Shown piece by piece: positions 14,427 through 28,740 of a stretch of DNA of 64,000 bases; within the stretch, counting starts at the first letter, position 1; every line of letters starts with the position of its first letter. A model generated the notes under the pieces. The model was not told the DNA's origin. It saw only the letters and a program-made list of their open reading frames with translations, and did not search any database. Position numbers and translations under genes: made by a program. The stretch spans positions 310,001-374,000 of the forward strand of contig NZ_NFHH01000001.1 of assembly GCF_002161285.1 (NCBI RefSeq), read 5' to 3'. The stretch comes from Blautia sp. An81 (GTDB lineage: Bacteria > Bacillota > Clostridia > Lachnospirales > Lachnospiraceae).

Positions 14427-14557
14427 TTTTCCTCGTCCAAAGAACCATTCTTTTACAAGGGAAGAAAATTAAACTCAAAATTATAATCAGTAATTACATA
14501 AAATTCTTCTTTAATTATTGCTTTTTTTAATATTTATATAATATTTACAGAAATCAA

Positions 14558-14586
14558 TTGACAAAATAACCAAAAATGGTAAAATA
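14558..14586 (+). promoter_or_regulatory. Sigma-70 promoter for the RyR-TIR operon leader
   Basis: TTGACA at 14558-14563 and TAAAAT 16 bp downstream, in an AT-rich 470-bp gap between divergent genes. It would start an RNA near 14592 reading toward the RyR-TIR operon. Confidence 0.5.
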
Positions 14587-14638
14587 AGCATATTAATATA
14601 ATTATTTTCTACATGCGGGAGATAAAGGTCAGCATGGT

Positions 14639-14703
14639 AAAAACAGAGCTGTCGCATTAAATAACGATCAAAATATTTAATGCAGCAGCTCTGTTTTTAT
14701 TCT
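14639..14703 (+). terminator. Strong hairpin terminator inside the leader of the RyR-TIR operon
   Basis: Arms AAAACAGAGCTG and CAGCTCTGTTTTT enclose an inner CATTAAATA/TATTTAATG stem, followed by a T-rich tail. It lies after the promoter and before the first gene, so it either terminates a short RNA of about 110 nt or acts as an attenuator. A minimal 8-codon ORF (MVKTELSH) begins at about 14634 and stops inside the first arm. The rest of the 14327-14804 gap shows nothing gene-like. Confidence 0.6.
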
Positions 14704-14804
14704 TGACAATGAGCCAGACGGACATGCTTGCATCTGTGTCTTTGACCACTCTGCATCCCGCAGCAGTCGCCTGTAAACAGCCGAAACAGTGAGAGGAAAG
14801 ATTC

Positions 14805-16706
14805 ATGGGAGAAGTGCTGGTTTTTTGTCTGACCTGGATCATCGGGTTGGCTATGATGCTTTTTTTGCTGTATTTTGTATCGAAACATAATCTTTGGTTT
14901 CGAAAATACGGCCTGACATTATTTATTGTATTTCTTGTAATTGGATTCAGCGTTTATTTTTGGGGATATTTCTGGGGGTTCGCCGTAGATGACAGCAGTT
15001 TGCTCCACGCAATCGGCAGCCTATTTCTTGCTTTATTCAGTTCTGGCCGTATCATGGTAATGGAATTGGATATCGGATCTACAAAGGCTTCGGAAAATAT
15101 AGAGCTGTATCGGGCAATTTATGGTGTAGTCATGTTTTCTGCAATGGTATTGCTGGCGGTCATGGTAGTCGCTAATATAGGTGGCGGCATTATGGGCAGG
15201 CTGCGTCTTCTGTTCCTGCAGACTATAGGAAGCAGACACAATGTTTACTTAATTTATGGCGTTTCCCAGGAGTCTGTTTTTCTGGTAAAAGATATCCACA
15301 AAAAAGACCCGAACGGAACCATCCTTGTTCTATGCGGCAGAGATGAATATGCAGATGACACGGAAGACAGAAAGCATCTGGAAAACGATATTTACCGGTA
15401 TGGTGCATTCAAACTTTCTTTTGCATTGGAGCGGCGAAACCTTTTCCTCTTAAAGATTGCCTCCAGATGCAGAAAACATTCCTACATTATCTGTATGCAT
15501 TCTAAAAGATGGAAAAACATTAAGCTTCTGAATGAAATATGCCAGGCTGAAGGCAAAAAAATTCCGGACAGGCTTCATTTATATGTATTAAGTGAGCGTG
15601 AGAGAATACGCAGGATTGCAGAAAATAATATCTATCAGAAATGGGATATTCATTGGGAGGATCCTGAAGAGCTGGCAGCCAGACAGTTAATCCTATCTAA
15701 AGAATATCTGACGGTCTTCCCCAAAAGTGACAATATCCTTGGGCGTGTGGAACGTGATTTCAATCTGGCAGTTATAGGTTGGTCCGGTACTGCGGAAGAA
15801 TTGTGCAGATATCTGATCCCAGGAGTCCAGACAGCCGGAATGCATATACGAATCCAGCTTTTTGGTGCAGAAGCAGCGGAAAAAACTGCCTATTTTCAGG
15901 TCAGCAATCCGGCCCTCGGACAGGCAGTACAGCTTGATCTGTGCAGGGAAGAGCCTGACACAAAAGAGTTTTACGAATATTTTATACATACCTCCCATTG
16001 CCCGGACGGGATCTTCTTCACAGGGACTGACGCAGCAAAAAACATGGAGCTGGCTCTGCGTCTCGATGACATCCTGCAGCGGTATCAAAAGAAGGTTCCA
16101 TTATTTGTAAAAGAAAGAAACATCAGTGAAGACAGCGGTATATTAAAAATCGAAGGGATTGCAGGTTTCGGCTGCCAGGAACAGATTTACAGCTATGATA
16201 TCCTGATCAACGAAAAACTGGATGGAATGGCCAAGGCGGTACATTGTTTTTATAAACAATACTATGGGGAACAGGGAGATGAGGATACCTTCTGGAAAAC
16301 TGCAAGTATTTACGAAAAATTTTCCAGCCGTGCCATGGCTGTCCATATTCCATGGAAAGTTTGCGCAGCAGGTTATGTGATCGTCTCCGGCCTTCCCGAC
16401 GGTTCCTACGAACAGGATCTTGAAAAAAATCCTGTTCTTGTAGAAAATCTGTCCATAGGAGAGCATCTGCGGTGGGAAGCCAGCCTTTTCTGCGAAGGAT
16501 GGAAAAGCGGGACACCGGAGCAGATGCCTCCCGGCTCCAACAAGGATCCGAAAAAACGGCTCCATACCTGTCTTGTCCCATGGGAAAAACTTCCTGAAGT
16601 CGGCAGGTACTATGACACTGACTACCAGTACTTGGATACGCACCTGGTAAAATCCATAGGACATATACTAAAAACTGCAGGATATGCAATGAAGAAGGAG
16701 GAGTAA
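14805..16706 (+). CDS. Membrane TrkA-N-like double-Rossmann protein with C-terminal RyR-like domain
   Basis: 633 aa. Three hydrophobic segments (about 4-26, 37-58, 108-130, with a possible pore-like stretch between) precede two nucleotide-binding-like Rossmann units (starting near NVYLIYGVSQES, about 144, and FNLAVIGWSGTAEE, about 320). The C-terminal 90 residues read as a RyR-type domain: SIGEHLRWEASLFCEGWKSG, then KRLHTCLVPWEKLP and DTDYQYLDTHLV. TrkA-N/RyR combinations have been described in comparative-genomic work on nucleotide-centred conflict systems. The start has GAGAGGAAAG upstream. First gene of a plus-strand operon; only 2 bp separate it from the next gene. Role as ligand-gated channel or sensor is inferred. 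Confidence 0.75.
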   Translation: MGEVLVFCLTWIIGLAMMLFLLYFVSKHNLWFRKYGLTLFIVFLVIGFSVYFWGYFWGFAVDDSSLLHAIGSLFLALFSSGRIMVMELDIGSTKASENIELYRAIYGVVMFSAMVLLAVMVVANIGGGIMGRLRLLFLQTIGSRHNVYLIYGVSQESVFLVKDIHKKDPNGTILVLCGRDEYADDTEDRKHLENDIYRYGAFKLSFALERRNLFLLKIASRCRKHSYIICMHSKRWKNIKLLNEICQAEGKKIPDRLHLYVLSERERIRRIAENNIYQKWDIHWEDPEELAARQLILSKEYLTVFPKSDNILGRVERDFNLAVIGWSGTAEELCRYLIPGVQTAGMHIRIQLFGAEAAEKTAYFQVSNPALGQAVQLDLCREEPDTKEFYEYFIHTSHCPDGIFFTGTDAAKNMELALRLDDILQRYQKKVPLFVKERNISEDSGILKIEGIAGFGCQEQIYSYDILINEKLDGMAKAVHCFYKQYYGEQGDEDTFWKTASIYEKFSSRAMAVHIPWKVCAAGYVIVSGLPDGSYEQDLEKNPVLVENLSIGEHLRWEASLFCEGWKSGTPEQMPPGSNKDPKKRLHTCLVPWEKLPEVGRYYDTDYQYLDTHLVKSIGHILKTAGYAMKKEE

Positions 16707-16708
16707 AT

Positions 16709-17614
16709 ATGCGGAGCATCAATCCCAGAGATTATTACCATCCCCAGGACCAGAAAGCGCTGTGGGAGCTGCAGCAGATTCCCGGATTTTCCGCTGCACT
16801 GAAGGCTTTTATGAAAATGTTCAGCGAGAATATGATCCGGGGGATTAATATGTCAAACAAAGTGCAGATCGGCCCCCGGCAGCTGCCGGAACTTTATGCA
16901 TTGCTGCCGCCCATCTGTGAAGTACTGGGTATCCGGGAACCTGAATTTTATCTGGAACTGGATCCGGCAGCCAACGCATATACCATGGGTGACAGTATTA
17001 TCTCTATAACCGTTACCTCCGGCCTTGTAGATCTGATGAACGAAAAACAGATCAGCGCCGTACTTGCCCATGAATGCGGACATATTGCCTGCCGCCATGT
17101 CTTATATCAAACTATGGCAAGCATGCTTCTGTCTGCCGGGGCCAATATTCTGGGAGGAAATCTTATTACCAGCGGACTTCAGCTGGCGTTTTTCCACTGG
17201 CAGAGATGCAGTGAATTCAGCTGTGACAGAGCAGCAGCTATCTATATGGACGGTTCTGAAACCGTAGCACAGGTCATGGCCCTTCTGGCATCCGGAAGCA
17301 GGGAAATGGCTGAACGTCTTGACATGGAACTTTATATGCGTCAGGCGGAGGAATACCGGGATTTTATGGACGATTCTAACTGGAATAAAATGCTTCAGTA
17401 CTATGCTTTAATGAGCCAGAACCATCCCTTCCTGTCGGTGCGGGCGCTGGAGATCAAAGAATGGTGCTCTTCCCCGGTCTTCAAAAACATTATGGATTTC
17501 AAATATGAGCGGGAACCTGCAAAAATCCTGGAAAAGAACCTTTGTCCGGCATGCGGCAAACCTGTGGAAGGCGACTGGGGATTTTGCCGGCATTGCGGAA
17601 ATAAATTGCATTAA
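16709..17614 (+). CDS. M48-type zinc metalloprotease with C-terminal zinc ribbon
   Basis: 301 aa. HECGH at residues 121-125 (HExxH) in LAHECGHIACRHVL; a following helix carries the third-ligand region SEFSCDRAAAIY with the ExxxD pattern. One hydrophobic segment follows the active site (about 136-160). The C-terminus NLCPACGKPV...FCRHCGNKL is a four-Cys zinc ribbon, shared in style with the 17892-18440 protein. Excellent GGAGGAG Shine-Dalgarno. Likely cleaves or activates a membrane partner of the operon; the substrate is unknown. Confidence 0.85.
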   Translation: MRSINPRDYYHPQDQKALWELQQIPGFSAALKAFMKMFSENMIRGINMSNKVQIGPRQLPELYALLPPICEVLGIREPEFYLELDPAANAYTMGDSIISITVTSGLVDLMNEKQISAVLAHECGHIACRHVLYQTMASMLLSAGANILGGNLITSGLQLAFFHWQRCSEFSCDRAAAIYMDGSETVAQVMALLASGSREMAERLDMELYMRQAEEYRDFMDDSNWNKMLQYYALMSQNHPFLSVRALEIKEWCSSPVFKNIMDFKYEREPAKILEKNLCPACGKPVEGDWGFCRHCGNKLH

Positions 17615-17632
17615 AAGGAGGAAGAAAACTTT

Positions 17633-17905
17633 ATGAAACTATTTGATGCAGAGACAGGTTATTTATTGCTGGATGAAGTTGTGGAAAGCAAAGACAGCTT
17701 CAAAAAAATCATGGAAGATGGGATCATTACAGATGAAGAAATGGAAGATCAGGTAAATCGGGTGATCGACAGGCTGAAAACAATGGAGGAAATCCTGTCT
17801 GACTATGAGAAAACTCTGGTATTGGATGCCATCAGTGAATTGGCGGTACTTTATGAGATGAATGCCAGAAGAGAAAAACAGGAGGGGGATTATGGGAACA
17901 TTTAA
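17633..17905 (+). CDS. Small acidic helical protein of the RyR-TIR operon
   Basis: 90 aa, Glu/Asp-rich and almost entirely predicted helix, with no Cys and no signal or membrane segment. Preceded by AAAGGAGGAAG. The family is not recognised. It overlaps the next gene by 14 bp, so translation is probably coupled. Its position between the protease and the zinc-ribbon membrane protein suggests an adaptor role (inference). Confidence 0.75.
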   Translation: MKLFDAETGYLLLDEVVESKDSFKKIMEDGIITDEEMEDQVNRVIDRLKTMEEILSDYEKTLVLDAISELAVLYEMNARREKQEGDYGNI

Positions 17906-18440
17906 TTCAACGAAATTCGTACCGACACAGATGCAGGACTATTCGGAGGTCATCCGGCAGACCGGAGAACAGCTTTCCCAACAGGGCTATACCTTTACTA
18001 CCGGGGACAGCGCTCTGGGAAATTATTTCAGCATAACTAAAGGCGGTTTATTCAAGTCGGTTTTGGGTATGAAAACTGCACTTAATGTAGAACTGACGCC
18101 TGTCTCAGGGGGCGTAAACATCGAAGCAAAAGTCGGGATTTTCGGTCAGCAGATCGTCCCTACCATGATCATGCTCTTTGTGGCATGGCCGGTATTGCTG
18201 ACACAGATCGGCGGCATGGTCCAGCAGGCAAAACTGGATGATCAGGTAATCCAAATACTGGAGACCAATATCCGGCTACTGGAAGGCCAGGCTTCCACTG
18301 CTGGCAGAACAGATACCTCCGGAACCACTCAGGACAGTCAGACGGCAGGCGGCGGCCAGTCTGAGTTCTGTACGCAATGCGGCGCAAAAGTACCTGTCGG
18401 TTCCAGATTCTGCAATTCCTGCGGAAGCAAGATAAGATGA
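17892..18440 (+). CDS. Zinc-ribbon protein with hydrophobic middle segment
   Basis: About 182 aa from the ATG at 17892, which follows GGAGGGGG; the longer frame from 17862 lacks such a site. The N-terminal 80 residues look alpha/beta, a hydrophobic stretch IVPTMIMLFVAWPVLLTQIG probably spans or enters the membrane, a low-complexity Ser/Thr/Gln linker follows, and a zinc ribbon FCTQCGAKVP...FCNSCGSKIR ends the protein. Family not recognised beyond the ribbon. Confidence 0.75.
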   Translation: MGTFNSTKFVPTQMQDYSEVIRQTGEQLSQQGYTFTTGDSALGNYFSITKGGLFKSVLGMKTALNVELTPVSGGVNIEAKVGIFGQQIVPTMIMLFVAWPVLLTQIGGMVQQAKLDDQVIQILETNIRLLEGQASTAGRTDTSGTTQDSQTAGGGQSEFCTQCGAKVPVGSRFCNSCGSKIR

Positions 18441-18481
18441 TTATTTAAGCCTGGAAATCGAAAACGAAGCAGGAGGAGATT

Positions 18482-18730
18482 ATGGGAATTGGATCTAAAG
18501 TCTCGGAAAGGGATATAGAATTTATTGCCAAAGGAGTACACGAGGCCTGGCAGCAGGAACGTACCAGACAGGGCTGGAAATACGGAGAAACAACAGACAG
18601 GGCTCGCAAAACACATGAATCCATGATTCCTTATGAGGACCTGACAGAAGATGAAAAAGACCTTGACCGGCGTACTGTAAAACAGGTGATCGAAATGTTG
18701 GTTTCTCTTGGATACAGAATAGAAAAATAA
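18482..18730 (+). CDS. Stand-alone RyR-domain protein
   Basis: 82 aa made of a single RyR (ryanodine-receptor repeat) domain: IAKGVHEAWQQERTRQGWKYG, then HESMIPYEDLTEDEKDLDR and VKQVIEMLVSLGYRI, all hallmark positions of the bacterial RyR family. Preceded by AGGAGGAG. RyR domains are proposed to bind nucleotide-derived ligands in conflict systems. It sits just ahead of the TIR genes and duplicates the domain type at the end of the 14805-16706 protein. Confidence 0.85.
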   Translation: MGIGSKVSERDIEFIAKGVHEAWQQERTRQGWKYGETTDRARKTHESMIPYEDLTEDEKDLDRRTVKQVIEMLVSLGYRIEK

Positions 18731-18739
18731 TGACCGAAT

Positions 18740-18784
18740 AAAGACAGGCTTTGGAAATCCTCCCAAAAGGCAAAGCCTGTCTTT
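18740..18784 (+). terminator. Hairpin between RyR gene and first TIR gene
   Basis: Perfect 14-bp arms AAAGACAGGCTTTG / CAAAGCCTGTCTTT with a 17-nt loop. The tail (GTCAC) is not T-rich beyond CTTTG, so termination may be partial, lowering TIR expression relative to the upstream genes. Confidence 0.6.
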
Positions 18785-18813
18785 GTCACATATAACCGGG
18801 AGGAGGACAATCT

Positions 18814-21705
18814 TTGACCGAGAAGAGAAATATCACTGATTATCATTATGATGCCTTTATTTCCTACAGACATCTTCCAAAGGATATGGCTGTGGCAGAT
18901 AAGCTCCAGAAACTTCTGGAAAAACATAAAATCGTTATCAAAGGAGAACACAGTACAGAAAAAAGAAAGCTGCGGATATTCCGGGATCAGACAGAACTTC
19001 CTACCAGCGGCGACCTGGGAGAGGATATCCGGCAGGCCCTGGCCCAGTCCCGTTATCTTATCCTCATTTGTTCCCCTAATCTGAAAGAATCCCGGTGGTG
19101 TATGGAAGAAGTCAATTATTTTAAACAGATATGGGGTAACAGCAATAACCGGATCCTCCCTCTGCTGATCGACGGTGAACCGGATGAGGTCTTCCCGGAA
19201 CAGATCCGCTGGGAAAACCGGAGGACTATTGGGAAAGATGGAAAAGAGACCCTGCTGCGTGTAGAAGTGGAACCACTGGGGGCTGATATCCGGGGGGAGT
19301 CATTAAAAAAGCAGCTGCACCGCTTGAAAACAGAGTACTATCGTATTGCTGCCCCAATCCTGGGATGCCGGTTTGATGATCTATACCGCAGGGCCCAGAG
19401 AGCAAGGCGAAGAAATGTTTCCATTGCCGTTGCTCTGATTCTCTGCGCTGCTCTGAGTTTTTCTGCTTACAGCCTGTTTATGCTGGAGCAGATTTCAAGC
19501 AGGCAATCAGCCCTTTACGAAAACGAATCTCTGCGTCTGGCCTCGGAAGCCGAAACCGCTGCAGGTTCCGGCAACCATCGTCTGGCCATACTCCTGGCCC
19601 AGGAATCTCTTCCAAAAAATTTGGAAAATCCGGAACGCCCAATACTTCCTGAAGCAGAGGCTGCGCTGAGAAGCGCCGTCACCCAGGAAATCGCCGATGA
19701 AGGAAAGCTCCCGCTACTATCCCGGGCCGTAGTCCCTTTTAACGTAGTATCCTGGTGGATCTGCAAACCCTATGATGAAGGAAAAAAAGTCGCACTGACA
19801 GATTTCGATAATACCTATCTCTATGACACCTATAACGGCGATCTGATCTTTTCCTGTGATACAGAGCAGGTTTATTTCGACGAAAGTGCAGAAAGAGCCT
19901 CCAGACAAGAATGCCTGACAGAAGACGATAAAATATCTCTGCAACTGGATCTGTATTGGACAGACACCGGAGAAAACTATTTTTCCGGACAGTATGAAGC
20001 CCAGAATCGGGAAGATGCTTCTGTAAATCTTTTTGCCATATGGGAGGAAGATTCCCGAAACTGCTGGGTGGTAAAACAAACCTTCCCTTTAGGACAGAGA
20101 AATGGAGACGCCGTAGAATCGGAAATAGAACTGCTAGACAGAATTGATGAAAAGGGGCAAAGCCATACAGAAGAAACGCTTCCGGAAAAGATCCGGGAAA
20201 TAGGGGAAAATTATCAGCATTCCTATCTCAATACGGATGACTATATCACAGCGCATTACGATTATATACCTGATAATACCGGAAGCACCGGAAATGAAGA
20301 AATTGATATTCTGGCAGAGGCGCTTATGTCTAACGGCTATAAAGTGCATGGGGTCAGAGAAATGAAAAACGGAAATGTACTTGCCTTTTCCTGTGGCTTT
20401 GCTGATAATTCTGAAATCACGTATAACGGTTATCCGGAAACCGCAGCCGCTGCTCTTTGGTCCAGAGAAGAAGAGCAATGGCTGACAGTCCTTCCCGGAT
20501 TTGTCTATGAAGAACCGGAAAGCGGACTTCTTTATCAGCATACCTCCGTAGAATTCCGTACCTATTCCTGGATAGAGGAGAACTTTGGAATTGAATCTCT
20601 GGCAGCCGAACAATATCTTATGATCAGTGAAGACGGGGAAAAGTACGCAAATGTGGAGATGGAAGGAGAAAACCTCTATCTGTCTGTCTGGGAAGCCGAT
20701 AACCTGAAGGAACCTGTGATCCGGGTTCCTCTGAAAAATCATAAGGCATATTATATAACTCCGGATTTCTCTCATGTTTTTCTGCAGACACCAGATGACC
20801 GCCTTCAATTATGGTCGGCTGAAGGAAACTGCCTGGCAGAACTGGAACCGGAGGTTGCTTCAGAGGAAATCTGTTTGACCGTTGACCGGGATCACCGGCG
20901 ATTAGCTGTCAGTTACCACATCGGCGAGGGGGAAAACCATATTGTGATCTACAGCGGAGAAACCGGGGAGACTTTAGATTCTTTAGACATCCATGATCTG
21001 GGGAATTACGGGATCTCCCATCTGGAGTTTGAAGGAGACTTACTATTAGCAGCTTCTATGTCCAGATCAGCCGTCATTGATCTGACAGGTGAGAAGGATG
21101 TCTCTTTCTTTGAAGATTCCAACTATGGAAGCAGAAAGGACGGTATGCTTACCTCGGACGGTTTATTGATCTGTACCTCAGAAACCAATGTAGGAAATTC
21201 CCTGGAAGCAATCTATGATCTGAATACAGGGGAAAAGCTTTTCGATTATGCCAGCGTTTTCCAATACGACGAGTCCACCGGCACATTGGCATATATTAAT
21301 CATGAGAGCCAGGCTACTCTCAGCGGCTCTGTATATGTCGCACATCGGGATGAAAACGGAGCATTCCGGGAACCCATAGAAATCATTTCCCAGAATGCAA
21401 ATATGGCCTTTGGCAACGGTGGCCAGAATCTGGATGGCAGTTATCTGCTGCTCAATGGAGAAAACTGCTGCGAGATCTACGATACCGATACCGGTGAGAA
21501 AGTACTGGAACTGAATTCCGGAGGTTATGGGCTTGCAAACGGATTGATCTGCGATCTGCAGAAAAACGGAAGTAAAAAGGCTTTACAATTTCCTGTCTTA
21601 TCTCTGGATGAGTTGTACTTAAAGGCTGATCAGATGTTAACCTCAGAAAACGGTATCCGAAGCCTTTCCAGCAAAGAAAAAGAATTATACTATATTGTTG
21701 ATTAG
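18814..21705 (+). CDS. Membrane-anchored TIR-domain protein with large beta-rich C-terminal region
   Basis: 963 aa from a TTG start after GGGAGGAGG. TIR domain at about 10-125: YDAFISYRHLP, FRDQTELPTSGDLG, and SRWCMEEVNYF, which holds the probable catalytic Glu (98 or 99). After about 200 residues a basic RRAQRARRR stop-transfer precedes one membrane helix (about 201-223), a helical stalk, then some 650 residues of repeated beta-strand sequence (phrases such as IYDLNTGEKLFDY, IYDTDTGEKVLEL), suggestive of a WD40-like propeller. Layout implies cytosolic TIR and an external or periplasm-equivalent sensor. NAD-cleaving or signal-making activity is inferred from the family. Confidence 0.85.
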   Translation: MTEKRNITDYHYDAFISYRHLPKDMAVADKLQKLLEKHKIVIKGEHSTEKRKLRIFRDQTELPTSGDLGEDIRQALAQSRYLILICSPNLKESRWCMEEVNYFKQIWGNSNNRILPLLIDGEPDEVFPEQIRWENRRTIGKDGKETLLRVEVEPLGADIRGESLKKQLHRLKTEYYRIAAPILGCRFDDLYRRAQRARRRNVSIAVALILCAALSFSAYSLFMLEQISSRQSALYENESLRLASEAETAAGSGNHRLAILLAQESLPKNLENPERPILPEAEAALRSAVTQEIADEGKLPLLSRAVVPFNVVSWWICKPYDEGKKVALTDFDNTYLYDTYNGDLIFSCDTEQVYFDESAERASRQECLTEDDKISLQLDLYWTDTGENYFSGQYEAQNREDASVNLFAIWEEDSRNCWVVKQTFPLGQRNGDAVESEIELLDRIDEKGQSHTEETLPEKIREIGENYQHSYLNTDDYITAHYDYIPDNTGSTGNEEIDILAEALMSNGYKVHGVREMKNGNVLAFSCGFADNSEITYNGYPETAAAALWSREEEQWLTVLPGFVYEEPESGLLYQHTSVEFRTYSWIEENFGIESLAAEQYLMISEDGEKYANVEMEGENLYLSVWEADNLKEPVIRVPLKNHKAYYITPDFSHVFLQTPDDRLQLWSAEGNCLAELEPEVASEEICLTVDRDHRRLAVSYHIGEGENHIVIYSGETGETLDSLDIHDLGNYGISHLEFEGDLLLAASMSRSAVIDLTGEKDVSFFEDSNYGSRKDGMLTSDGLLICTSETNVGNSLEAIYDLNTGEKLFDYASVFQYDESTGTLAYINHESQATLSGSVYVAHRDENGAFREPIEIISQNANMAFGNGGQNLDGSYLLLNGENCCEIYDTDTGEKVLELNSGGYGLANGLICDLQKNGSKKALQFPVLSLDELYLKADQMLTSENGIRSLSSKEKELYYIVD

Positions 21706-21775
21706 TCAAAGACCCCGATGCAAACATGCCCCCTTGACTCGTTGCCCGCAGGAATAAAGAGGTAAAACAATAAAA

Positions 21776-22582
21776 ATGGATAACTATAAATATGATGCAT
21801 TTATATCTTACAGGCATTTACCCCTGGATATGTCTATTGCTATAAAACTTCAAAAACTTCTGGAAAATTATCGTCCTCCAAAAACTCTGAGAAAAGCAGA
21901 AAAAGCCAAAATCCACCGTGTTTTTCGGGACCAAAGTGAACTTCCTACCAGTGGAAATCTCGGAAATGATATTCGTGAAGCCTTGATGCAATCCTGTTAT
22001 CTAATCGTAATCTGTTCAGAGAAAACAAAAGAATCTGCCTGGTGCATGGAAGAAATACGCTTCTTTAAAGAGATCCATCAGGGAAAAACTGACCACATTT
22101 TAACGCTTCTGGTTTCTGGAGAGCCTGAAAATGTATTTCCCGATCTCCTCAGGCATGTAACACAGGAAATGGTCATGGATAACGGCGAGATCCTGGTGCA
22201 GGAGGAATACATTGAGCCGCTAAGTGCCGATATCAGAGCCGATACTTTGCATAAGAGCCTGAGAAAATTAAAAGTAGAATTTTTGCGCTTGGCCGCTCCT
22301 TTGCTAGACTGCGGTTTTGATGAGTTATATCAAAGACACAGACGGCGTAAGAAAAAGCGGATCATCCGTGCCTCACTTGTCAGCACAGCAATCCTGGCCG
22401 GTATTTTTATCCTGGCTTCAGTGTCGGTTTTACGTGCCCGTTATCAGGATATTACGGAAAATGTATTAAAAATCCGTTCTGAAATTCAAATGGACAATAT
22501 GCTGAATGCCCTTCAAAGCATTAAGGAACTTAATGATACTTATCCCGGTCAGCCATATACAGAATATATCCAGGGCTGTTAG
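21776..22582 (+). pseudogene. Second TIR-TM protein, N-terminal part, ended by frameshift
   Basis: TIR domain (YDAFISYRHLP, FRDQSELPTSGNLG, SAWCMEEIRFF) plus basic linker and a membrane helix (about 199-222), clearly paralogous to the 18814-21705 gene. The frame stops at 22582, while the natural continuation (LLESEYLKANYREAFSQLG) runs in frame 1 from the same point. One missing base near the GGG at 22575-22577 explains it. It may still make a 268-aa TIR-TM protein. The Shine-Dalgarno is weak. Confidence 0.75.
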
Positions 22583-24066
22583 AATCTGAATACTTAAAGG
22601 CAAATTACAGAGAGGCATTCTCTCAGCTTGGCACAATCGAAACAAATGGCAGACTTCTCGGGAAAACGCAGGACAGCAGCTGTCTGTTTAGTGCGGCTGT
22701 GAAAGAAGATGGTATTTTTCATATAGAAATCTTTAACCGGTTACTCCAGCCTCTGGACAATTTTCTCCTGAAAGGAAACGATTATACAGAGGAGTGGTTC
22801 TTTTCAGAATATGTGTCAAAAGATAAGGTTCCTGAAATCGCCTATGATGCTGAAAGACAGCAAATCACCATATGCAGAAACGGACAGAATTATATTTACG
22901 GTTCAGATGGAGCGCTTTTAGAAGAAAAAGCTGCAGAAAACCTGGATGAAACGGAGAACTCAAAAGAAAAAGCAACCCTTATTGCCTCCATCAGTGAAAA
23001 TCCTTCAAACGGCCCCCTGTATATAGAATCTCCGGATGCCATATATTATCTGCAGGCTCAAAGTTCTGCAGAGCCGATAAATCTTTTAAAGAACGCCTGC
23101 CTGGTACGTCACCCTTTAACATCCGGGAATCCAGAGATTTTATTTCCTGTTTCCGCTCCGGCTGACGGATATGCATTCAGTAAAATTTATATAACACCCG
23201 ATAAGGCCTATGCTATCATCCTTGCAGAGCGAGGGATTTATTATACCAATATTTACGTCTATAATCTGGATAGCGGAAAACAGTGTTTGTCTATATCTGA
23301 ATTTCCGGGTACGGCGAGCATCAGCTTTGATTTTTATAGCAATTCCGGCCAGATTCTAATATATAGTGACAGTATTTTGACCCGGGCAGTTCTCAGCGGT
23401 TTTACCATTCCCCATGATAACTCCTTGACCCATTATTCAGAATTTTCTTATGAATCCGCCTCTGGCCTAGCACCGGAATATGTTTTTGACCAAGAATCTG
23501 GATTAGCGTATATTTTAGATCATGGCGAGGGAGGAAATCGAATATACGCCGTTACCTTAAAAGATATTTCTCTGTGTGATCAATGGAAAAACTTGTCGGC
23601 AGTCCATCCGGACTTTGCTGCAAAAACAGAAGAAACTTATAATGAAAATGTAAGCCTTAAACCGGAGGATAATGACTTGATAAAAAATCCATCATCTTTT
23701 TCGGAAGAAAGTATTTCCGAATATTCCCTGACCACAAATTTTTTTCAAATCGAAGCTACCGGCACTGTTCACCGCACAGGACCTTCAGAAGCTGCATTTA
23801 GCGGCAGCGATATCGTTTTGAATGTTAAAGATTCCAACGGACAGCCATTGATACAATTCACTAATATGGATTTTGCTCACCCTTATTATAACGAATCAGA
23901 TGCTATCTTTGGCTTCATAAATTATAGAACAAATAAAGTTTGCGCAGCCTACAAATTGTACACTTATCAGGAATTAATTGACTGTCTTTCTATTGTCGAG
24001 ACATCTGATCTTTTAGAAGGAACAGGGAAAAACAGCTTCCCTGCCCTTCCCTGGAAAACACCGTAA
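22583..24066 (+). pseudogene. Second TIR protein, C-terminal beta-rich part, out of frame
   Basis: Open in frame 1 from 22537; a GTG-initiated ORF of 455 aa starts at 22699 but has no good ribosome site. The sequence resembles the C-terminal sensor region of the first TIR protein (beta-strand repeats, no membrane helix). The final 77 bp overlap the 3' end of the convergent histidine kinase, so the terminal residues are probably not native. Confidence 0.65.
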
Positions 24067-25611: not shown

Positions 25612-28600
25612 CTATACACCCAGTTTTTTATGCTGTCTTACTACCGTTTCATAATCTCCATAGATAAAATAATAATCTGCCTGGGCCTCTCCTTTTGTAT
25701 ATACATAAGTACCATACATGGGAATATCACAGCCCAGCACCGTATGTCCCGCTCCAATGCTGATGCCATATCCCTGATAAGAATAGATCAATGGCATACG
25801 CATCTTTTTCCCGCCAAAGCTGATATATCTGGCCTTATGACTTAAAGGTTCCTGGTTGCCTGCCAGGATACCTTTGGCAAAAATCTTTTCTTCTTTTGGC
25901 CATTGAAAATAGGCCCAGGTTCTGGAAATTCCATCCAGCTGCCGGGGAATCTCCGGATTTTCCTCCAGCAGTTTCCGCCCCTGTCTGTCAAAAAAAGTCA
26001 GGGCTCCTGTCTTCTTTCGGATCCTTACTATAAGCCTGTCTGTAGCAAGCTCCACCGTATCCTTTCCTGCCCTGGCGCTCCAGTTTACCCCGGTTTCCGG
26101 CTCACTGTCCCAGTAGCCCTGAGGGAATTTTCCCTCATTTTCCCTGACAAACTGAATCCGGATCACAGTCTCTCCCAGAGGCGTCAGCCGCAGAGTTCCA
26201 TATGCTCCCTTTAGTGTCAGCCAGGCTCTGCTTTTCTTTACTTCTGTAATCTCCAGTTCCCTGGGATGTATCCTTTCCTGTATCATCAGATTCTTTAGGA
26301 CCTGGGTATCCGGAATATCTCCGAAATGCCGTGGAGAAGGATTGACTGGAAGAGGTCTGGGTGCCTTCTGGATCAACCGGATATCCTCTGCCGGTTTCTC
26401 CTGACACTCTTTTTCTTTGCGGGAAATCTCTGGGCTTTTTGCTCCTGCCTTCCTACTTTCTTCTGAGGTTCCTGCTCCAGCTGCATCCCTCTTTTTTAAA
26501 GCCGGAATCTTACTGGAAACATCTCCTTTGGGCTGTCCTTCCTTCTGTATTCTGTCTGTATCCCTGTCCTGTTTTTTCTCCGGATTTTTTTCTGTTTTTT
26601 GAGTTTTTCCTTCCAGGAATTCCATATGTTTTTCTCTGGATACTGGTTTTCCGATAAGCTCTGTTAGGTCTTCCCCATGAACCACTGCCAACTCATGAAG
26701 GGCTCTGGTAGCCGCCACATAGAGCAGTTTTACATAGCCGTCTTCCCAGGGATATTTCTCCTTAGAGGGGTCATAGAGAAGCACTGCGTCAAACTCCAGT
26801 CCCTTGGTATATTCCACTGGAAGGACCATGATCCCTTCCCCGAATTCCGCTCTTTCCAGGTCGCTCTCTGCTAAAGAAAGATGCTCTTTCAGACAGCCGC
26901 TGAGCCAGGAGGCTTCCTCCTGGTCCCGACAGATCACTCCAATAGTTTCATGGCCCTCTTTCTGCCAGTTCTGGAGAATTTTCACTGTCTCCCGGACCAT
27001 TTCCTCCTTCCTGCAGGGAACCAGGGACACTTCTTTTCCATAGCGCTCCACAGGTTCTACAGGATATACCGGAAAGTTTCCATGACGGAGGATTTCCGTG
27101 GCAAATCTGGAAATTTCCACAGTATTCCGGTAGCTTTTCTTCAGTATCCCGAAGGTATCACGGGGGCCGGTAAGAAGCAGTTCCTGAAGCTCTTTCCAGT
27201 CATTCAGTCCCCAGCCGAAATGTATATTCTGGGAAACATCTCCCATAACCGTATAGGTACAGCCCCTCAGACAGTAGTCCAGGACTCCGTAGGCCATCAT
27301 GCCGAAGTCCTGGGCCTCGTCGATGATCACATGGCTGGCTTCCCGGATGCCGTCTGTCTCTTTGATCCGTTTATAAATATAGGCCAGAGCCCCCAGGTCG
27401 TACAGGTCAAATGCACTTTCCCGGAAAGGCGCTGTTTTCCCTTTTTCCTGCTGTGTCTGGAGGAACTCTCTATAAAAATCATAGACAGATCCCTTCCAGT
27501 TTCTTCCGCCGAAATGTTTCCGGTAGGTCCGGAATAGTTCTTTTCTCTCTTCCAGTGTATAGATAGTTCCCACACAATTCAGTTCATTTTCCAGCTTTGC
27601 CATAAGAATTTTATTCAGCATACGGATCTTGCTCTGCATAGACATCAGAGGATTGTCTTTCAGATAATTTTCTATGGCTGTCCCGGACATGATCAGTCTC
27701 CTGCCTCTTTTCAGACGGATTTCTTCCCGGGGTATCTGCTGCCTTTCATATTCTCTGCAGAAGTTTTCCAGATCCCGGAACCACTCCAGACTCCCCTTCA
27801 GGCAGCTGCTTTTGTCATTCTTATCTGCCGGAATGATCTGGTATTTCTCTCCGTCCCATTCTTCATAGAGCAGCCTTACAAAGAGCTGTTCCATCGTCAT
27901 CTGGGACACCCCGTATACATCCAGATCCGGCAGGACACTGGTAATATAGTTCAGCAGTATACGGTTGCTTCCGATAATATAAAAGTCCTCCGGACGAAAG
28001 GTCTCCTCATAATTATACAGAATATAAGAAATCCGGTGCATGGCCACTGTTGTCTTTCCGGAACCGGCCACACCCTGAACGATCATATTGGTCTTTGGGG
28101 ATTTACGGATGATCTGGTTCTGCTCTTTCTGTATCGTTGCAATGATCTCTCCCAGAACTGCTTTCTTGCTCTTTGCCAGGTATTTGTTCAGCAATTCGTC
28201 TGTAGCTACAATATCTGAATCATAAAAATCTTTTAAATGATCATTTTCAATCTCGTAGGTACGCTTCCGACGCAGGTCAATGTTGTAGGTTCCATGCTCT
28301 TTTACCGTATAGCTGCATGGTCCCAGAGCGTTCTCATAATAGACAGAAGCCACCGGCGCTCTCCAGTCTATGACCAGGGGGTCTGTACTATCTTTGGTGA
28401 TTCCCACTCTTCCCACATAATAGGACTCCTCCCAGGGGATCTTAGAATCTTTAAAATCGATCCGCCCGAAATAAGGTTTTTTTCTTGCCCGCTCATATCT
28501 CAGAAGCTCCCTCTGGCTCTCCCTTAACTGAGACTGGGTATTATGGAGAAGAGACAGCCCCTCCTTGTCCTTTGGTCCATAGGTCTCTATCAAATCATGG

Positions 28601-28740
28601 ATATCTTCAGACAGAGTCTGGATATTCTTTCTGGTCTTTTCAAGATTTTCCTGAGCTGTGTCCAGGATCAGGGCCAATTGTTTCTCTTCTGCTTCTCTGG
28701 ACAGCCCTGGAACAGGGCGGAAAGTCTTCTTTTCATTCAT
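25612..28740 (-). CDS. helD: HelD-like UvrD-family helicase fused to a GH31 N-terminal domain
   Basis: 1042 aa. Residues 1-725 form a HelD-type motor: N-terminal coiled coil, Walker A GVAGSGKTTVAMHR at 223-236, HVIIDEAQDFGM Walker B, and LLYVAATRALHEL motif VI. HelD strips or recycles stalled RNA polymerase. A charged Lys/Glu linker (about 725-827) leads to about 215 residues that read as the galactose-mutarotase-like N-terminal domain of GH31 alpha-glucosidases (TDRLIVRIRKKTGALTFFD, GRKLLEE, MPLIYSYQGYGISIG), ending exactly where the GH31 catalytic barrel would begin. The reading frame is uninterrupted across the junction. Function of the tail unknown; carbohydrate binding is a guess. Confidence 0.85.
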   Translation of the reverse strand: MNEKKTFRPVPGLSREAEEKQLALILDTAQENLEKTRKNIQTLSEDIHDLIETYGPKDKEGLSLLHNTQSQLRESQRELLRYERARKKPYFGRIDFKDSKIPWEESYYVGRVGITKDSTDPLVIDWRAPVASVYYENALGPCSYTVKEHGTYNIDLRRKRTYEIENDHLKDFYDSDIVATDELLNKYLAKSKKAVLGEIIATIQKEQNQIIRKSPKTNMIVQGVAGSGKTTVAMHRISYILYNYEETFRPEDFYIIGSNRILLNYITSVLPDLDVYGVSQMTMEQLFVRLLYEEWDGEKYQIIPADKNDKSSCLKGSLEWFRDLENFCREYERQQIPREEIRLKRGRRLIMSGTAIENYLKDNPLMSMQSKIRMLNKILMAKLENELNCVGTIYTLEERKELFRTYRKHFGGRNWKGSVYDFYREFLQTQQEKGKTAPFRESAFDLYDLGALAYIYKRIKETDGIREASHVIIDEAQDFGMMAYGVLDYCLRGCTYTVMGDVSQNIHFGWGLNDWKELQELLLTGPRDTFGILKKSYRNTVEISRFATEILRHGNFPVYPVEPVERYGKEVSLVPCRKEEMVRETVKILQNWQKEGHETIGVICRDQEEASWLSGCLKEHLSLAESDLERAEFGEGIMVLPVEYTKGLEFDAVLLYDPSKEKYPWEDGYVKLLYVAATRALHELAVVHGEDLTELIGKPVSREKHMEFLEGKTQKTEKNPEKKQDRDTDRIQKEGQPKGDVSSKIPALKKRDAAGAGTSEESRKAGAKSPEISRKEKECQEKPAEDIRLIQKAPRPLPVNPSPRHFGDIPDTQVLKNLMIQERIHPRELEITEVKKSRAWLTLKGAYGTLRLTPLGETVIRIQFVRENEGKFPQGYWDSEPETGVNWSARAGKDTVELATDRLIVRIRKKTGALTFFDRQGRKLLEENPEIPRQLDGISRTWAYFQWPKEEKIFAKGILAGNQEPLSHKARYISFGGKKMRMPLIYSYQGYGISIGAGHTVLGCDIPMYGTYVYTKGEAQADYYFIYGDYETVVRQHKKLGV

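Follow-up and report, generated by a model that had tools for sequence, protein, structure and literature searches.

An operon of seven codirectional genes in Blautia sp. An81 combines TIR proteins, RyR domains and an M48 protease. We propose that it is a messenger system based on TIR domains, probably directed against phages, which resembles Thoeris with a new class of receptor/effector. The probability of this reading is roughly one half. The gene set, its domains, the pocket residues, the linkage between RyR and TIR and the horizontal acquisition are all read from sequence comparisons, according to which the gene set is conserved and moves horizontally.

The window we have analyzed is the whole stretch of 64,000 nt of Blautia sp. 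An81 (NZ_NFHH01000001.1, positions 310,001 to 374,000 of the forward strand), and all coordinates are window positions. A single operon of tightly packed open reading frames is found at 14805-24066 on the forward strand, with the genes in the order listed below. An earlier note on this DNA described seven codirectional genes. All their reading frames are found where that note placed them, but the second TIR-TM-beta gene is not one open gene: It contains a frameshift. The features are the following:

14427..23992, + strand: horizontally acquired insertion carrying the operon, 9,566 bp, from alignment with the empty sites of the same genus (L119-L121)
14558..14585, + strand: probable operon promoter, TTGACA-16-TG..TAAAAT, 11 of 12 consensus matches, the top-scoring one in the region
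14805..16706, + strand: RyR-RCK membrane protein, 633 aa, with N-terminal TM helices, two Rossmann/RCK units (aa ~145-469) and RyR (aa ~545-611)
16709..17614, + strand: soluble M48 metalloprotease with C-terminal zinc ribbon, 301 aa, Pfam E 2e-17, HECGH, E169, D173
17633..17905, + strand: acidic helical protein, 90 aa, position kept in L112-L116 and L052
17892..18440, + strand: zinc-ribbon TM protein, whose conserved start is residue 11 of a 192-aa reading frame
18482..18730, + strand: stand-alone RyR domain, 82 aa, Pfam E 9.5e-21, with H20, W23, H45 and D62
18814..21705, + strand: TIR-TM-ectodomain protein, 963 aa, TTG start, Pfam TIR_2, Glu at W95+4, TM at ~200
21776..24066, + strand: second TIR-TM-ectodomain gene, frameshifted, with two reading frames at 21776-22582 and 22699-24066

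The promoter comes from a consensus scan, and a consensus match by itself is no proof of function. A strong hairpin is found between this promoter and the first gene (14638-14699, with 26-bp arms, 92% complementary, followed by T-rich sequence). It is possibly an attenuator or a small repeat element. No counterpart appears upstream of the operons in loci L112, L114 or L115, and membership in a microRNA family was rejected, the matches being far below cut-off. Further along the window, the reading frame at 25612-28740 has a helicase-like N-terminal part and a C-terminal part resembling the start of a glycoside hydrolase (domains read by eye), and its match is split at two places in the same-genus genomes G006 and G015.

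A search with the M48 protein over the genomes of about 85,000 species gave five loci, L112-L116. They present the gene order of the window wherever their contigs extend: The contig of L113 stops within the first TIR gene, that of L116 starts within the M48 gene. L115 has a single TIR gene. Proteins in these loci are ~43-76% identical to those in the window. The flanking DNA is unrelated among the window, the Mediterraneibacter-type loci (L112-L114, L116) and L115, so they correspond to three genomic contexts. Since the whole order recurs in other genomes, the gene set is far beyond chance.

That the operon entered this genome as a clean insertion is seen from three relatives in the same genus (L119-L121), which have an empty site: Their flanks are 93-98% identical to those of the window, with about 5 bp between them. 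The insertion takes the place of these ~5 bp. The RyR-RCK protein is absent from all other genomes of the genus (19 of 19). The 14427-23992 insertion showed no integrase gene, and neither a target duplication nor terminal repeats. In plasmid sequences, M48 proteins are merely 24-30% identical, with no sign of the M48 cassette.

The genes had been taken as one system. They do form a conserved set which moves, but the TIR+RyR part and the TIR+M48 part are also found separately. In genome G294, a TIR gene is followed by a cassette coding for the M48, acidic and zinc-ribbon TM proteins. The TIR protein has RHS repeats in this case, and a response regulator and a kinase come after the cassette. No RyR gene was found in this genome, which is 97% complete, so the cassette seems to be tied to TIR rather than to RyR. 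TIR and RyR are found together without the protease in many genomes. G294 and these TIR+RyR loci rule out that the seven genes are an inseparable unit. By sequence, the operon is made of two modules, each tied to TIR: TIR+RyR and TIR+M48-acidic-zinc-ribbon TM.

The 301-aa protease has the features of M48 peptidases, HExxH and a downstream Glu, and the Pfam match (E 2e-17) bears out the M48 protease with zinc ribbon of the earlier note. In NCBIfam/PADLOC it matches HtpX far below every cut-off, and a PDB sequence search with it gave no match. The acidic 90-aa protein is 50-60% identical in L112-L116 and L052; no Pfam family is found above cut-off. The 192-aa TM protein was correctly described as a zinc-ribbon membrane protein (Pfam zinc ribbon, 57-60% identity in six loci), but its conserved start is at residue 11, that is, at 17892. 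The low-confidence model of this protein (pLDDT 59) shows no clear fold: No match is found at E<0.001, and weak Bet v 1-like rows were set aside. The cassette is rare, its TM protein appears in one other genome among 391 of the class, with a weak match. Other M48 relatives of about 330 aa (L056-L059) belong to a different conserved set, which contains proteins of ~600 aa, ~690 aa with TM helices, M48 and ~600 aa, with zinc-ribbon proteins nearby.

A release of TIR or channel domains by the protease, as suggested in the earlier note, is unsupported. In a rival reading, the M48 protease is the main effector: Activation of TIR would start host/phage proteolysis via the zinc-ribbon TM protein, and the RyR parts would merely sense or clear the messenger. 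The active-site residues H121, E122, H125, E169 and D173 are invariant in eight relatives, as expected from such a role, and the cassette of G294 suggests that TIR and cassette can work without RyR. Nevertheless, the protease has no messenger-binding domain and is absent from most TIR+RyR loci, so this explanation seems unlikely to us.

In favour of the TIR-messenger reading is the association of RyR with TIR, which is not limited to this operon. A RyR domain is found in 55 of the 397 genomes of the family to which the window belongs. The expected co-occurrence is present: TIR genes make up 14 of the 65 genes that closely neighbour RyR genes in the same direction, as compared to 11 of the 713 others (Fisher p 4.4e-10), in addition to the recurrence of the full order in L112-L116. 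When the TIR label is mapped on the tree of 56 RyR-RCK proteins, about 11 changes are required, and supported branches force at least nine of them, so the link between TIR and RyR-RCK has been gained or lost many times. Seven RyR loci outside the family were fetched. TIR directly adjoins RyR in three of them: L124 (TIR-beta-helix), L129 (TIR-LRR) and L130 (RyR-TIR-RyR). L127 has TIR genes two places off on both sides of RyR, one of them TIR-NACHT, and L128 has a TIR near RyR on the opposite strand. In L125 and L126, DUF4062 proteins adjoin RyR or are near it. A TPR-S / guanylate-cyclase-like protein is found in L124 (9736-11178), directly upstream of the stand-alone RyR and the TIR-beta-helix protein.

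TIR neighbours are lacking for about 20 RyR-RCK proteins of ~525 aa, which counts against the TIR-messenger reading: RyR-RCK may serve another input too. The ~525-aa proteins without TIR (L080, L081, L086, L089-L092, L095-L098) group in one clade with good support, which may be a housekeeping branch.

RyR domains are part of animal calcium channels, and a direct response of animal ryanodine receptors to cyclic ADP-ribose has long been debated. A comparative study of 2015 reportedly linked RyR to nucleotide conflict systems. The stand-alone RyR protein of the earlier note is confirmed: The 82-aa protein matches Pfam RyR (PF02026) with 74.3 bits, the cut-off being 27.4 (E 9.5e-21), and solved RyR domains with E values down to 5.5e-37. 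The tail of the 633-aa protein (residues 545-606) matches Pfam RyR below cut-off when used alone (E 0.0054, 17.4 bits), and a family profile of 15 sequences matches the RyR1 chimera 6uhi with E 3.5e-24. By this profile comparison, the tail is a RyR domain.

According to a 2026 preprint (PMC13232231), phage RyR proteins bind 2'/3'cADPR, immune messengers made by TIR, and one of them, RyDEP, cleaves 2'/3'cADPR with H75 and D117, with W78 and H100 also holding the ligand. The 82-aa protein has these pocket residues at the same spacing (H20, W23, H45, D62), and they are kept in its counterparts from the other loci of the system. In a set of 67 fused RyR domains, 62 keep the first His, 64 the Trp, 60 the second His and 33 the Asp. 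All four are present in the fused RyR of the window; in L112-L115, the fused domain has no Asp at the aligned position, which we count against the TIR-messenger reading. Such a distribution of residues fits a binding role for the fused RyR, and either binding or hydrolysis for the 82-aa RyR. Hydrolysis by the latter is not implied, because sponge-type phage relatives are similar in sequence.

The 633-aa protein has predicted helices at 2-28, 30-60, 65-77 (a short one) and 96-124, followed by two Rossmann units and the RyR tail. The sequence SSGRIMVMELD is invariant after the short helix in four close relatives, and no known selectivity filter motif is recognisable in the pore region. Both structure searches place the gating ring of LjCASTOR first (Z 10.9), with an rmsd of 10.8 over two domains for a model with pLDDT 52; the next matches include DMI1, MthK, Kch, BK and TrkA. 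This model is poor, and the consistent matches come from the RCK part only; the poor model and the lack of a recognisable filter count against the TIR-messenger reading. The alignments behind the structure models are shallow and were made from sequences other than the loci of the whole-genome searches. The earlier description of a TrkA-N-like membrane protein with a RyR-like end holds for the tail (E 3.5e-24, 6uhi), but for the body, two predicted Rossmann/RCK units like those in the gating ring of a channel are a better description. The protein probably forms a gated ion path.

Two loci (L065:1300-11342 and L093:875-12229) have a CASTOR/POLLUX-like channel gene next to genes for RyR-RCK and TIR proteins. 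It matches Pfam with E 0.001 and 0.007, below cut-off, and is preceded in both by a TM protein of ~1,445 aa of no known family. Profile comparison of RyR-RCK with these neighbours gave a poor alignment, and a PDB sequence search with them gave no match.

Both TIR proteins of the window match Pfam TIR_2 (E 5e-15 and 2e-9). They and their relatives contain the Trp-x3-Glu of the catalytic Glu, as aligned with plant TIR structures. A basic stretch is found directly before the TM helix in every TIR protein that has one; by the positive-inside rule, TIR should be inside the cell and the remainder outside. The window and L112-L115 share 51-66% identity in their TIR halves; the window ectodomains have no detectable similarity to those of L112-L115 or to each other. 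Ectodomains of the relatives resemble propellers, RHS repeats and PDZ-like ends, mostly with matches below threshold. Sensor exchange over a fixed signalling half is the pattern expected of a set of receptors.

Variable ectodomains outside the cell might also belong to an envelope or ion-homeostasis sensor, unrelated to phage defence, which would read an envelope signal and adjust ion flux through RyR-RCK. The response regulator and kinase beside the G294 cassette, the existence of RyR-RCK genes without TIR and the location of the insertion, which adjoins an ABC-transporter and two-component locus, are in favour of such a sensor. But the distribution is patchy, a single genome in the genus has the clean insertion, and the chemistry of both TIR and RyR is known from phage conflict: We regard such a sensor as rather improbable. 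The flanks of the operon show no defence island, which counts against the defence reading.

The second TIR gene is in two halves, with a one-base frameshift near 22576. Its natural end was lost at the edge of the insertion (23992), and the last ~74 bp are host DNA: The edge is within the last codons of the gene, so the reading frame ends in host DNA. This frameshifted gene is the orthologue of the first TIR gene in L112-L116; the 963-aa TIR is more distant. In L114 (15710-18567) the second TIR gene is also broken, with ~277 bp missing as compared to L116. The breaks in both the window and L114 hint that the second TIR is dispensable. That one of the two TIR genes is broken in this genome counts against the TIR-messenger reading, and the two breaks, together with the stop codon lost at the insertion edge, might be taken as signs that the operon is decaying and no longer functions in this genome. 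Such decay is very improbable: The order has been kept in independent contexts at 43-76% protein identity, active-site and pocket residues are intact, and the other TIR gene and all remaining genes in the window are open.

A messenger, channel activity, defence and a role for the protease are what we infer from this set. In the TIR-messenger reading, the TIR-TM proteins would be seated in the membrane, with TIR inside and the variable ectodomain outside. A trigger sensed by the ectodomain would lead TIR to turn NAD+ into an ADP-ribose messenger, such as 2'cADPR or 3'cADPR. On binding to the RyR domain that ends the double-RCK membrane protein, this messenger would open an ion path, which would de-energise the cell and stop the infection. 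The 82-aa RyR would bind or hydrolyse the messenger, setting a threshold or resetting the system. The least certain step is that of the M48/acidic/zinc-ribbon TM cassette, which may act on the TIR receptor or beside it, in processing or quality control. In its most specific form, a pathway of transmembrane TIR receptors in which a cyclic messenger derived from NAD directly gates a RyR-domain ion channel, with the paired RyR as an off switch, our proposal is tentative.

The operon shares several features with known systems. As in Thoeris, its TIRs have a catalytic-type Glu and should produce an ADP-ribose messenger that a partner protein receives. However, there is no ThsA (SIR2-SLOG or macro-TM): A RyR-RCK membrane protein is present instead, the TIRs are membrane receptors with ectodomains, and there is an extra M48 cassette. 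No SIR2, SLOG or macro domains were found in the proteins of the operon. Because the ThsA-type effector is a defining feature, we have not classified the operon as Thoeris. The stand-alone RyR has the same four pocket residues and spacing as RyDEP (PMC13232231), but it is host-encoded within a TIR operon, which makes it more likely a regulator than an evasion protein, and RyR is also found fused to an RCK membrane protein. The RyR-RCK protein resembles CASTOR/POLLUX (DMI1), MthK and BK in its predicted membrane helices followed by tandem RCK-like Rossmann units, the gating-ring fold being the best structural match of the poor model. It differs from them in its C-terminal RyR, in having no recognisable filter sequence and in a similarity undetectable with HMMER. 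The protease shares HExxH and the third-ligand motif with HtpX/M48, but lacks TM helices, has a C-terminal zinc ribbon and is far below HtpX cut-offs.

The gene set is absent from PADLOC and NCBIfam, where besides the sub-cut-off HtpX match only weak partial TIR matches are found, in agreement with the earlier view that no named system has it. A literature search, with subscription journals mostly outside its scope, found no paper describing it. The new elements are the RyR-RCK protein and the M48 cassette.

In summary, host operons repeatedly pair RyR with TIR, whether RyR is a separate protein with all four pocket residues or the C-terminal end of an RCK membrane protein. Thanks to this repeated pairing, small proteins offer a direct test of the idea that TIR messengers are received by RyR domains. 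Beside the TIR and RyR parts, the operon has the M48-acidic-zinc-ribbon cassette as an additional component. If the proposed pathway is true, it would be a bacterial counterpart of the proposed animal cADPR-RyR signalling and of plant TIR-to-channel signalling.
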